Origin: Desulfurivibrio dismutans
Lineage (GTDB): Bacteria; Desulfobacterota; Desulfobulbia; Desulfobulbales; Desulfurivibrionaceae
Reading direction: 5' to 3'
Assembly: GCF_029210385.1 (NCBI RefSeq)
Contig: NZ_JARGDQ010000011.1
Span: forward strand, 1-64,000
Length of the DNA stretch: 64,000 nt
In this document: positions 13,183 through 62,131 of the stretch, piece by piece
Layout of the letters: each line of letters opens with the position of its first letter
Position numbering within the stretch: position 1 is the first letter of the stretch
Notes under the pieces: model-generated
The model's input: the letters and a program-made list of their open reading frames with translations, nothing else
What the model was told of the DNA's origin: nothing
The model's database searches: none
Translations under genes and position numbers: made by a program

Positions 13183-13290
13183 GTAATCGCGTCGCAGTGC
13201 CGCAGATTGCGGCAAGCGACCCGGCGCCGCGTACCCCAGGTACGCAAGCCGGGTCGATCGCCGCAAGGTGCGGTGCTGCGGCGCGATTAC
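13183..13290. repeat. 108-bp GTAA-palindrome element (napA 3' end)
   Basis: Near-perfect inverted repeat with ends GTAATCGCG ... CGCGATTAC, arms containing TTGCGGCAAGCGACCCGG and its complement, and a GTACCCCAGGTAC centre. It starts two bases after the napA stop and lies inside the nap cluster before napG. A structured RNA here could protect the napA message or reduce transcription into napGHD. Confidence 0.85.
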
Positions 13291-31134: not shown

Positions 31135-32532
31135 ATGGATGCAAAGCAGCGGATGGCAATTCCTCGCCAGCAACCCAGGGAGTTGCCGGTGTCTGAACGG
31201 ATCAATAATTTTGACGAAGTGGTATTTGGCTATGATGATGAAATGGCCTGCCGCGAAGCCGAGCGATGTCTGCAGTGCAAGAAGCCCAAGTGCCGGGAAG
31301 GCTGCCCCATCCACAACGATATCCCCGGTTTTGTCCGTATGATTCGCGAGGGCAGGATTGAAGAGGCCTACTGGCTGGACCGCCAGACCAACACTCTGCC
31401 GGCGATCTGCTCTCGGGTGTGCCCCCACGAATTCCAATGTGAAGGTCACTGCGTGTTGGGGAAAAAGGGGGATCCGGTGGCCATCGGCATGCTGGAACGA
31501 TATATCGTCGACTGGATGGTCAGCCACGGCAAAAACATGTTGCAGCCCTGCGCCCTGCCCAACGGCCGCAAGGTGGCCATTGTCGGTTCCGGGCCAGCCG
31601 GCATGTCGGTGGCCCACTACCTGGCCAAGGAAGGTTATGCCTGTACCATTTTCGAAAGCCTGCCGCTCAACGGCGGTATGCTCACCGTGGGCATTCCCCC
31701 GTATCGACTCCCCCGTGCCGTAATCGCTGCCGAATTTGAGGCGTTGCGCAACTGCGGGGTGGAAGTGATCTCCGGGGTGACCATCGGCCAGGATAAAACC
31801 CTGGCCGACCTGAAGGACGAGGGCTTTGAGGCGATCTTTCTGGGGCCGGGCGCCCATGTCAGCCGCAAGCTGGGGGTGGATGGCGAAGAGGTGGAAGGGG
31901 TGATCCACGGGGTGGATTACCTGCGTCGGGTCAACCTGGGCGAAAACCTCAACCTGGGTGAAAACGTGGTGGTGGTTGGCGGCGGTAACGTGGCCATCGA
32001 CTGTGCCCGGACCGCTTTGCGGACCGGCTCCAAAAACGTCTTCATCCTCTATCGCCGCGGCCGGGATGAGATGCCGGCCTCCAGGGCCGAGATACATCAC
32101 CTGGAGGAAGAGGGGGTAAGAATTGAAACCCTGGCTGCGCCGGTCAAGGTGCACGGGGAAAACGGCCGCTTAAAGAGCATCGAGTGCATCCGCATGCAGC
32201 TTGGCGCCTGCGACGCATCCGGCCGTTGCCGCCCCGAACCGGTGGAGGGCAGCAATTTTACCATCGATGCCGACGCGGTGATCCCGGCCATCAGCCAGGA
32301 TGTCGACGTCACCGCCGGCCGCGGCCTGGACCTGGCGCTGAGCCGCTGGGGCACCTTCGAGGTGGACGAGGTAACCCTGCAGACCACGGTACCCTGGGTT
32401 TTCGCCGCCGGCGACGCGGTCCTGGGCCCCCAGACCGTGGCCAAGGCCGTCTTCCAGGCCAAGGAAGCCGCCGAATCAATCCACCGCCTGCTCCAGGGCA
32501 AGGACCTCAAACAAGGCCGCATCACCACGTAA
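31135..32532 (+). CDS. gltA: Glutamate synthase small subunit-type NAD(P)H flavoprotein
   Basis: The 465-residue protein has an N-terminal [4Fe-4S] dihydropyrimidine-dehydrogenase-type domain (CLQCKKPKCREGCPIHNDIP, CSRVCPHEFQCEGHC). FAD-binding (GSGPAGMSVAHYLAKEGY) and NAD(P)H-binding (VVVGGGNVAIDCARTALRTG) Rossmann motifs follow. The family includes the homotetrameric GltA/GltB small subunit and NfnB of electron bifurcation. No NfnA-type partner and no large GOGAT subunit is adjacent, so the physiological reaction is open. GGAGG precedes the start. Its stop codon TAA lies inside the terminus of a palindromic element. Confidence 0.8.
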   Translation: MDAKQRMAIPRQQPRELPVSERINNFDEVVFGYDDEMACREAERCLQCKKPKCREGCPIHNDIPGFVRMIREGRIEEAYWLDRQTNTLPAICSRVCPHEFQCEGHCVLGKKGDPVAIGMLERYIVDWMVSHGKNMLQPCALPNGRKVAIVGSGPAGMSVAHYLAKEGYACTIFESLPLNGGMLTVGIPPYRLPRAVIAAEFEALRNCGVEVISGVTIGQDKTLADLKDEGFEAIFLGPGAHVSRKLGVDGEEVEGVIHGVDYLRRVNLGENLNLGENVVVVGGGNVAIDCARTALRTGSKNVFILYRRGRDEMPASRAEIHHLEEEGVRIETLAAPVKVHGENGRLKSIECIRMQLGACDASGRCRPEPVEGSNFTIDADAVIPAISQDVDVTAGRGLDLALSRWGTFEVDEVTLQTTVPWVFAAGDAVLGPQTVAKAVFQAKEAAESIHRLLQGKDLKQGRITT

Positions 32533-32635
32533 ACGTCCAGCAGCACCGCAGGTTCGGGCGAGCAGGCAGGCTTGCGTACTGGAGTACGCGGCACCTCCCT
32601 GCTTGCCCGAACCTGCGGCACTGCTGAACGTTTAC
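32529..32635. repeat. 107-bp GTAA-palindrome element (gltA 3' end)
   Basis: Ends are GTAAACGTCCAGCAG and CTGCTGAACGTTTAC; the inner arms contain CCGCAGGTTCGGGC and its complement and a TGCGTACTGGAGTACGCGG centre. The gltA TAA is bases 2-4 of the element. A likely transcript-end hairpin. Confidence 0.85.
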
Positions 32636-32724: not shown

Positions 32725-32831
32725 GTAAACGCGCGGCAGTACCACAGGTTGCGGCAAGCGGCCCGTCTTGCGTACCCCAGGTACGCAAGACGGGCCGATC
32801 GCCGCAAGATGCGGTGCTGCCGCGCGTTTAC
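32725..32831. repeat. 107-bp GTAA-palindrome element (amiC 3' end)
   Basis: Ends are GTAAACGCGCGGCAG and CTGCCGCGCGTTTAC, with arms GGTTGCGGCAAGCGGCCCGTC / complement and centre GTACCCCAGGTAC. On the minus strand its GTAA supplies the TAA stop of the amidase gene. With the previous copy it fills most of the 295-base gap between the convergent gltA-like and amiC genes; the remaining 89 bases show nothing notable. Confidence 0.85.
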
Positions 32832-42039: not shown

Positions 42040-43326
42040 TTAAAGGAGGTCAAAGAAAAGCACTTCGCAGACCAGGGTGCGATTGCAGTTGCGCCGCAGC
42101 CGGCTTTTAGCCCGGCGCAGATGCTGGCGGCAGCGGCCCAGCGCGGCTGTGTCCCGCCGGCCCGCCGCCGCGCTCAGCAAAGGCAGAAGATCACGGTTGA
42201 TAAGCTTCGACGCCTTGATATCCGGCTGGTTCGACTGGCGATAACCGTCCAGCAGTGACAGGTCGTGGTAGCAGGAGGCCAGCAGGTCTATAAAGTCTTC
42301 CAGTTCATCTTTAAGTTGGGCGCAGCGTTCGGCCCAGTACAACACCACGGCGGTGGCCGCCGGCTCTTCGGGCCGCAGGTTCAGCAGGGCATCCAGTACC
42401 TCCCGGCGCAGGGCCAGAAACCCCTTTTGCTGCAATTGCCGGGCGCGGCCCAGGCTGCCTTCGGCCACCGCCGCCAGGGTTAGGAACTCTTCCGGCAATG
42501 GTGGGTCTTGCCGGCGGTTTTGGGGCGCCTGGCGCCCGCCGGTCTCCGGATCTGACTTTAACAGGGCCAAGGCCAGGGTCTCCGTCGGCAGGGGAAAAAA
42601 CGGAATGACCTGGCAGCGGGAAAGGATGGTGGGAAGAATGCCGCCGGCCTCGTCGCCGGTAAGGATCAGGATGGTGTCGGCGGGCGGTTCCTCCAGCACT
42701 TTGAGCAGGCTGTTGGCCGCCTCCCGCCGCATGGTATGAACTTCGCCCAACAGCACCACCCGGCGACCGGCCTCCATGGGCGGATACTGCAGGGATTTTT
42801 TGATTTCCCGCACCTGGCCGATCTTGATTCCCGCCCCTTCGGGCATAATCTCCAAAAAATCAGGGTGGTTGCCGGAGGCAAACTTACGGCAGGAAGGACA
42901 AAGCCCGCAGGCCTCCAGGGGGTCGGGGCGCCCAGTTGGCACGGCAGCGTCACCATGCAGCGGTGGTGCAGATTCGGGCAAGCGGTCCGGCGCCGCGTAC
43001 CCCGGGTACGCAAGCCGGTCCGATCGCCCGAAGATGCGCTCAGTTGGCACGGAAGCGTAACCGTGCAGCAGTGGTGCAGATTCGGGCAAGCGGTCCGGCG
43101 CCGCGTACCCCGGGTACGCAAGCCGGTCCGATCGCCCGAAGATGCGCTGCTGCTGCACGGTTACGCAATTTAATGCGGCGGCCAGGGCCCGTGCTGCGGT
43201 TTTTTTGCCTATTCCTTCCGGACCTCGGAAAAGGTAGGCGTGGGCCAGCCGGTCGCCGGTCAGGGCCCGGCGCAGCATCTCTTTGGCCTGGTCTTGGGCG
43301 ATGATTTGGGAGAAGGGGATCAGCAT
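42040..43326 (-). CDS. holB: DNA polymerase III delta' with palindrome insertion
   Basis: Clamp-loader subunit of 428 residues. AAA+ P-loop region RGPEGIGKKTA is at 34-44, the zinc module is C140, C143 and C146 (ACGLCPSCRK) with C54 as the likely fourth ligand, and the sensor region reads NSLLKVLEEPP. Typical proteins are about 330-350 long. The excess is a 72-residue insert (about 61-132) made of two 36-residue repeats beginning RIFGRSDRLAYPGYAAPDRL, encoded by a duplicated palindromic element. The insert lies between the first Cys and the other three, in a surface loop, and the frame is preserved. It is probably still functional. Confidence 0.88.
   Translation of the reverse strand: MLIPFSQIIAQDQAKEMLRRALTGDRLAHAYLFRGPEGIGKKTAARALAAALNCVTVQQQRIFGRSDRLAYPGYAAPDRLPESAPLLHGYASVPTERIFGRSDRLAYPGYAAPDRLPESAPPLHGDAAVPTGRPDPLEACGLCPSCRKFASGNHPDFLEIMPEGAGIKIGQVREIKKSLQYPPMEAGRRVVLLGEVHTMRREAANSLLKVLEEPPADTILILTGDEAGGILPTILSRCQVIPFFPLPTETLALALLKSDPETGGRQAPQNRRQDPPLPEEFLTLAAVAEGSLGRARQLQQKGFLALRREVLDALLNLRPEEPAATAVVLYWAERCAQLKDELEDFIDLLASCYHDLSLLDGYRQSNQPDIKASKLINRDLLPLLSAAAGRRDTAALGRCRQHLRRAKSRLRRNCNRTLVCEVLFFDLL
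42933..43164. repeat. GTAA-palindrome element, tandemly duplicated inside holB
   Basis: A complete 108-bp palindrome (43057-43164; ends GTAACCGTGCAGCAG / CTGCTGCACGGTTAC, centre GTACCCCGGGTAC) is preceded by a second copy. The repeat unit (42933-43040 and 43041-43148) is exactly 108 bases and the two copies differ at four positions. It is in frame within holB on the minus strand. Confidence 0.95.
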
Positions 43327-44486: not shown

Positions 44487-44588
44487 GTAACCAATTCACC
44501 GGGTTTGTCCCGTAAGCAGTCACGGAATGCCGCATTTTCGGGCAAACCGGGCAGGTCGCCCGAAAATACGGTGTTACTGCATGGTTAC
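44487..44588. repeat. Diverged GTAA-palindrome element (purL 3' end)
   Basis: Left end GTAACCAATTCACC and right end GCATGGTTAC, with a strong internal hairpin (GCATTTTCGGGC ... GCCCGAAAATAC, 44531-44570). It shares the GTAA/TTAC ends and the TTCGGGC / GCCCGAA arms with the other copies but has a different centre. Its last C is the third base (on the plus strand the first) of the purL TAG codon. Confidence 0.6.
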
Positions 44589-47578: not shown

Positions 47579-47659
47579 GCTGGGCTCCTTGGCAAATTTT
47601 ATAATTTATTGTTAATGGCGCCGGGCCAGAATCACCGGCTGGAACGTTTACCGATTTTC

Positions 47660-47810
47660 TTAACCGTTCACCAGGGCCAACAGAGTGTCGATTTAACGGG
47701 CTGTAAACGTTCAGCAGTGCCCCAGATTCGGGTAAGCAGCCAAGCGCCGCGTACCCCGCGTACGTAAGCTTGGTTGATCACCTGAAGGTGGGGTGCTGCT
47801 GAACGTTTAC
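47660..47810. repeat. GTAA-palindrome element with left extension (upstream of tRNA-Gly)
   Basis: The 108-bp core (47703-47810) has ends GTAAACGTTCAGCAG / CTGCTGAACGTTTAC and centre GTACCCCGCGTAC. A 43-base left extension starts TAACCGTTCACCAGGG and ends TAACGGGCT. The same extension, at the same distance, precedes the copy at 56039. The rest of the purL-tRNA gap (47579-47954) holds only the tRNA promoter. Confidence 0.85.
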
Positions 47811-47907
47811 CGATTTTCGTTGGCACGACAATATAACGCATCAGATTTTTTTTGCCCGGACCTTTTTTGCCCGGCCGTGATTACCATCGTTCCCGTTGCC
47901 GCCACCC

Positions 47908-55995: not shown

Positions 55996-56146
55996 GTAAC
56001 TGTTCACCAGGCCGATAACCAATCGATTATAACGGGTCGTAATCGTTCAGCAGTGCCGTAGATTCGGGCAAGCAGCCGGGCGCCGCGTACTCCGCGTACG
56101 CAAGCCCGGCTGATCGCCCGAAGATGCGGTGCTGCTGAACGATTAC
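55996..56146. repeat. GTAA-palindrome element with left extension (rpsO-pnp)
   Basis: The core (56039-56146) has ends GTAATCGTTCAGCAG / CTGCTGAACGATTAC and centre GTACTCCGCGTAC. The 43-base left extension begins GTAACTGTTCACCAGG and ends TAACGGGTC, paralleling the copy upstream of tRNA-Gly. It lies in the leader of pnp, where RNA structure controls PNPase in E. coli. Confidence 0.85.
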
Positions 56147-60463: not shown

Positions 60464-60487
60464 ACCCCGAGGCGATCCCCAAGAAGA

Positions 60488-60561
60488 TAAAAGCCAGTCA
60501 GCACCGCAGGTTGCGGCAAGCGGGCCGATCGCCGCAACCTGCGGTGCTGACTGGTTTTTAT
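60488..60561. repeat. Short GTAA-type palindrome acting as bidirectional terminator
   Basis: A nearly perfect stem of about 30 bp (AAAAGCCAGTCAGCACC with GGTGCTGACTGGTTTTT at the ends, GGTTGCGGC / GCCGCAACC inside) and a 13-base loop. Poly-A on one side and poly-T on the other fit a two-way terminator between convergent genes. It has the CAGCACCGCAGGTTGCGG arm of the larger family but lacks the GTAC centre. The TAA of the response regulator gene overlaps its right end. Confidence 0.85.
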
Positions 60562-62022: not shown

Positions 62023-62131
62023 GTAACTGTTCAGCCGTGCCCCAGGTTGCGGTAAGCCAGGTCGGCGAAGCGTACATCAGGTACTCAAGCCGACCTGATC
62101 GCCGGAAGATGGGGTGCTGCTGGACAGTTAC
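62023..62131. repeat. 109-bp GTAA-palindrome element between kinase and regulator
   Basis: Ends GTAACTGTTCAGCCG and GCTGGACAGTTAC, arms with GGTCGGC / GCCGACC, centre AGCGTACATCAGGTACTC (more diverged than other copies). It sits inside a two-gene operon and could lower read-through or separate the stabilities of the two messages. Confidence 0.75.

Follow-up and report, generated by a model that had tools for sequence, protein, structure and literature searches.

A probable IS66-type MITE inserted in frame, and later partly duplicated, within holB of a Desulfobulbia genome

Small palindromic mobile elements lying in frame within essential genes are best known from Rickettsia and from REP-rich genomes. 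The Rickettsia palindromic elements (RPEs) are palindromic inserts found in frame in unrelated conserved genes (PMC10969869). REPs with GTAG or CGTC ends are described with a location at gene 3' ends, termini that supply stop codons and occasional inserts in replication, repair and tRNA-synthetase genes (PMC3733652), and IS66 with GTAAGCG ends and 8-bp repeats (PMC11946415). In the locus described here the same in-frame outcome is produced by a family that bears clear hallmarks of a transposon, in free-living sulfur-cycle bacteria, and the inserts hit the replication clamp loader and a tRNA synthetase. We consider it likely that an IS66-type MITE inserted in frame in holB and later underwent a partial tandem duplication. 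The window, that is, the whole 64,000-nt stretch analysed, corresponds to C3:1-64000 of G000, whose genome of 2.84 Mb is assembled in 33 contigs.

The holB insert and its tandem duplication

HolB scored 187.4 bits and so passes the NCBIfam holB cut-off of 180.6 bits (TIGR00678), with the match divided into two stretches, one starting only at residue 137. Right after the Cys54 codon the protein reads V T V Q Q Q R I F G R S ... H G Y, and the frame is free of stops through the insert, as the first-pass annotation had stated when it placed a palindromic mobile element, subsequently duplicated, between Cys54 and the CxxCxxC part of the zinc module. Base comparison and alignment with relatives bear out that placement: none of the 30 relatives readable across the site carries the element (28 holB loci in one comparison plus G003 and G005; a further locus, L059, is truncated, and G001 was left out because its gene is broken at a contig end). 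An old protein domain was rejected, the repeat being about 90% identical to the intergenic DNA copies and the relatives being without the element.

By hand count, Cys54 is 84 residues from the ACGxC motif in HolB versus 9 in G002, which may be D. alkaliphilus; the previously estimated excess of about 72 residues is real, but the net count against G002 is 75. The same linker has 15 residues in G003, 29 in G004 and 7 to 8 in the other readable relatives (hand count); such variation in length between species makes it plausible that an insert would be tolerated there. The 29-residue linker is common to G004 (L033) and SJBG01000003.1 (L256), with no similarity to the element seen, and from this linker the site seems to accept inserts. 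The AlphaFold2 model of HolB, built from 8 sequences, is weak overall (mean pLDDT 67, pTM 0.51), with pLDDT below 50 at residues 64-134 and moderate values elsewhere. Foldseek matched this model to clamp-loader subunits, among them delta' of E. coli (1a5t, E = 6e-10), the TM-scores being low. Judging from the prediction and from the linker lengths of relatives, the insert probably forms a disordered loop that is tolerated rather than useful, and the HolB protein carrying it is presumably made and working.

Table 1. Features of the holB locus and full-length copies of the element in the window
Feature	Position	Strand	Details
holB, DNA polymerase III subunit delta'	42040..43326	-	ORF 428 aa; NCBIfam TIGR00678; Pfam PF13177 in two stretches
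Cys54 codon, first cysteine of zinc module	43165..43167	-	directly precedes insert; coordinates by hand
Intact 108-bp hairpin core of the MITE, GTAACC...GGTTAC	43057..43164	.	covariance model 122.0 bits; fold
GCGC opening the duplicated tract, inside element	43144..43147	-	recurs at 43036-43039 and 42928-42931; coordinates by hand
Tandem unit A, first in gene	43036..43143	-	repeat finder; base comparison
Tandem unit B	42928..43035	-	103/108 bases identical to A; repeat finder; base comparison
Second, imperfect hairpin from tandem duplication	42949..43056	.	one outer arm is spacer sequence; 77.7 bits; base comparison
CxxCxxC (Cys140, 143, 146), remainder of zinc module	42889..42909	-	3' of insert; invariant alignment columns
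Copy 2 bp from gene 3' end	13183..13290	+	
Copy at stop codon of left convergent gene	32529..32635	-	offset -4
Copy at stop codon of right convergent gene	32725..32831	+	offset -4
Other copy	47703..47810	+	43-nt tail 47660-47702; 8/8 target duplication 47652-47659 and 47811-47818 (flanks by hand)
Intergenic copy	56039..56146	+	
Other copy	62023..62131	+	short tail, 8/8 direct repeat

The intact hairpin has its model strand on the plus strand, and the side that is usually gene-sense reads with holB. The fold of 43055-43166 has a predicted energy of -92.1 kcal/mol (z = -12.2), and none of 200 shuffles was as good. The repeat finder returned 108-nt direct repeats, 95% identical, at 42928-43143. 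These units are offset by 17 nt from the hairpin, so that what had been described as two copies of an element are indeed 108-nt duplicates but not independent elements, the unit being a shifted tract in which most of the hairpin is joined to 17 nt of flanking sequence. A base-by-base count gives five differences between the two units rather than four (CTG/CCG, CAC/CAT, TAC/GAC, TCC/GCC and GAG/GGG). All five fall in the final 31 nt of the unit, three of them in the outer arm that the second hairpin retains. That the duplication is recent, as had been proposed, is not shown by these data. The duplicated tract, present twice, starts at a GCGC within the hairpin and stops before a GCGC in the flank, and these limits leave the second hairpin without one outer arm. 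On the sequence evidence, then, the hairpin, the absence of the element from relatives and the shape of the duplication are established, as are the further copies, family ends and target duplications described below.

In the sequence of events that we propose, an IS66-type MITE of about 130-155 bp, consisting mostly of the 108-bp hairpin, would have inserted into the holB linker between the first and second zinc cysteines. With a remaining length divisible by three and no stop in the holB frame, delta' would still have been made, with an extra loop. Later, tandem duplication of the 108-nt tract between the GCGC tetranucleotides, which we propose as its microhomology, would have added 36 more residues. 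We infer that the holB copy arrived by transposition. A target duplication was not found at this copy, which is absent from the 26 listed copies that have one (see below). On the 3' side of the hairpin there is a weak 14-nt trace of the short (25-nt) tail, as good a match being found in 2.8% of 500 shuffles; when the 43-nt tail was sought at this copy, 64% of shuffles were as good.

The element family and its mobility

That the palindrome also occurs at intergenic sites of the window was confirmed by six other full-length copies, starting at 13183 to 62023 (Table 1). In the convergent gene pair with copies starting at 32529 and 32725, each gene stops in the TAA of its own copy and the hairpins face each other in opposite orientation. 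Two shorter hairpins, at 44512-44588 (77 nt) and 60487-60561 (75 nt), match the ends of the covariance model but have the inner part missing; from their sequence these are possible deletion derivatives of the element. A known RNA family was rejected as an explanation, since the only match in the window at Rfam gathering scores is a tRNA.

The covariance model (R1) matches at least 150 copies in G000 at E <= 0.001, one of them partial, and at least 150 in G002; because all 150 scored G000 candidates match at that threshold, chance is excluded. An alignment of 39 copies from G000 and G002 has 109 columns with 96.3% of cells paired, and changes on both sides were seen at 21 of 45 pairs, compared with a mean of 9.9 in 500 shuffles and at most 10 with slid partners. 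In a class-wide search under tighter filters, in which 15 candidates were scored for each genome, R1 matched 152 of 257 genomes and 54 of 69 genera, the weak matches among which may include long chance hairpins. Twenty strong loci from 18 genomes agree in sequence, in their GTAA...TTAC ends and in being about 108 bp long.

Many copies carry a tail of 25 or 43 nt on the gene-sense side, ending in GTTAC, and the 8 bases preceding the hairpin are repeated after the tail. The terminal inverted repeats begin GTAA, the tail end being GTAACTATCCAGC or GTAACCGTTCACC when read on the opposite strand. Right after a TTAC-like end, 26 of the 150 G000 copies listed have a direct repeat of at least 7 of 8 bases; in 50 flank shuffles the mean was 0.48 copies and the maximum 2. 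Eighteen loci were examined from 30 fetched in G051, G060 and G176, and 11 of them have a 7/8 or 8/8 target duplication, two with identical flanks. In G003, 10 of 14 copies examined are identical over 108 bp and have different flanks. Taken together, the tails, the target duplications and the identical G003 copies identify the element as a MITE that duplicates 8 bp of its target. The hairpin by itself was rejected as the transposition unit, no listed copy having a target duplication less than 16 nt from the hairpin. The sum of hairpin, tail and 8 bp is divisible by three in 15 of the 26 listed copies with a duplication. Since these copies belong to two related subfamilies and the figure may be due to chance, we do not claim that insertion is in frame by design. 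A length of this kind would help in-frame survival.

PF03050 genes were found in 10 of 38 relatives. The IS66 locus of G028 has ends reading GTAACTGTTCAGGTCA and an 8/8 duplication, and the encoded protein passes the NCBIfam cut-off for an IS66 transposase. With this transposase as the query, relatives were found in 17 of 257 class genomes (E <= 1e-60), and 20 of 30 loci of that clade have GTAA-type ends together with an 8/8 target duplication, mostly GTAACTA(T/C)(T/C)CA... The closest correspondence is in G051, where a MITE end (L351, L353) reads GTAACTATCCAGCTTGCGC and its 19 first bases are identical to those of the resident IS66 end; the remaining G051 MITE copies have at most 16 bases in common with it. 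At E <= 1e-60, G000-G004 yielded no member of the clade, and, with the clade in 17 of 257 genomes versus the MITE model in 152, most MITE genomes are without a detected clade member. The sole IS66 gene of G000 (C3:89957-90826) has GTAAGCGCTCA ends, in full GTAAGCGCTCAGCA and GTAAGCGCTCAATG, which are similar to the MITE ends but not the same, and its best end pairing gave a target duplication of 0/8. The source IS66 may have been lost, or a different IS66 may act. From these shared ends, IS66-type transposases probably move the element, and the element is best regarded as a new IS66-type MITE family. A search of the open-licence literature, to the extent that its text was available, returned no IS66-derived MITE of this kind and none such from Desulfobulbia.

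A RAYT/REP origin was also considered and rejected: 34 of 38 relatives have PF01797 genes, the presence of which bears no relation to copy number. There were no R1 copies at three RAYT-type loci (L216, L223, L225) or at two IS200-type loci, and two further PF01797 matches in G000 have no listed R1 match within 5 kb.

Placement at gene 3' ends and competing readings

Genes were called with our own codon-usage script rather than a standard caller, in 94 stretches around model matches; in the window the script gave 88.7% coding and the expected holB neighbourhood. The usual place of the element is at gene 3' ends, not in coding sequence. Of the 150 G000 copies listed, 97 lie within 12 bp of a gene 3' end, and of the 95 listed copies that abut just one gene, 93 point the same way. 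The GTAA of the element supplies the TAA stop of 41 gene ends, at 40 of the 143 intergenic copies listed. Random placement in the same gaps (1000 rounds) gave 32 of 143 copies at 3' ends (maximum 46) compared with 96 observed, and 1.4 TAA-stop copies (maximum 6) compared with 40. Again among the 150 listed, 9 of 26 copies with a target duplication are at 3' ends versus 88 of 124 without one (p = 0.0007), which suggests retention, or decay of the mark, at gene ends. Nine of 11 aligned G002 loci, chosen for matching flanks and compared by eye, are also occupied in G000. In G002, the glycogen debranching protein GlgX has a C-terminal tail formed by reading through a copy (L064, G002:C1:560366-560473).

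These placement data, the sites shared with G002 and the both-sided changes in the pairing would all suit a hairpin that is a long-resident 3'-end module, no longer mobile, whose holB copy arose through recombination or template switching. We regard this as unlikely, however, since the fresh target duplications and identical copies speak for recent movement. In addition, the 58 G000 copies of exactly 108 bp have 88 G.T and 41 A.C mismatches on the model strand, so that A.C mismatches outnumber G.U wobbles by 88 to 41 on the gene-sense strand, which argues against selection on an mRNA hairpin. Nor is there a T-run 3' of the hairpin on that strand, for which reason an intrinsic terminator was rejected. 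A more tentative extension of the IS66-type reading is that the whole class keeps the MITE hairpin as a gene-end cassette, set in one orientation right at the stop codon and often supplying it, its tail and target duplication decaying while pairing is preserved by compensating changes, and that the inserts in holB and ileS are stray products of this process. We think this possible but lean against it, its odds being held down because the mismatch strand asymmetry opposes selection on the sense mRNA.

The likeness to RPEs was drawn on the basis of the in-frame peptide in holB, and this outcome is seen a second time in ileS, where the gene around the copy at C29:20535-20641 has NCBIfam TIGR00392 as its best match, the fragment scoring below the full-length cut-off. 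The copy lies just before the WTTTPWT motif (L161, L226) and is not present at that site in G002, G001 or G009; the two halves flanking the site are only 15 nt apart in G003 and 21 nt apart in G004. Its outer arm, CCGAACCTTTTC, matches host sequence at the empty site of G002, CCGAATCTTTTC, and the other arm is the complement, as if one hairpin arm had been copied from the target. A family membership with the Rickettsia elements did not hold, given the IS66-type ends and 8-bp target duplications. A Rickettsia-like element whose spread depends on in-frame protein insertion would account for the stop-free inserts in both genes and for a core length that is a multiple of three, but we consider it extremely unlikely. 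Only five of the 150 G000 copies listed are inside genes, and only the two holB hairpins and the ileS copy, or two insertion events, are flanked left and right by coding-like sequence; the copies at C28:47492 and C33:49511 lack such flanks and resemble C-terminal run-ons. The ileS copy also differs from the holB copy in both frame and orientation. Tandem 108-bp hairpins are hard to assemble, and the assembly has 33 contigs, so the holB duplication, as distinct from the element, might be thought an artefact. We find this very improbable: the units differ at five bases, one slippage explains both junctions, and another tandem array of the element occurs at C31:106227-106574 in the same genome. 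An IS66-type MITE that inserted in frame and was then partly duplicated is the reading we prefer.

Comparison with known systems

Because empty sites and both young and old copies can be read in one class, the spread of the element, its bias toward stop codons and its absorption into proteins are testable. What is unusual is its close and orientation-specific association with stop codons, which is known in kind from REPs (PMC3733652). The element resembles REP/RAYT palindromes in its location at 3' ends, its stop-supplying termini and its occasional inserts in replication and tRNA-synthetase genes, but REPs measure 20-40 bp and carry a GTAG or CGTC foot, whereas the element is 108 bp with a GTAA foot and 8-bp target duplications. 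Like RPEs it is palindromic and lies in frame in unrelated conserved genes; RPEs are often inside ORFs, compared with two loci among the 150 copies listed here. The closest likeness is to IS66 and IS-derived MITEs, with which it shares GTAA ends, 8-bp target duplications and a short non-coding unit, as well as the 19 end bases identical to those of the resident IS66 in G051. It differs from them in that no cognate IS of the matching clade was found in this genus and in that 108 of its approximately 130-155 bp form a single hairpin, the length of which is kept across the class.
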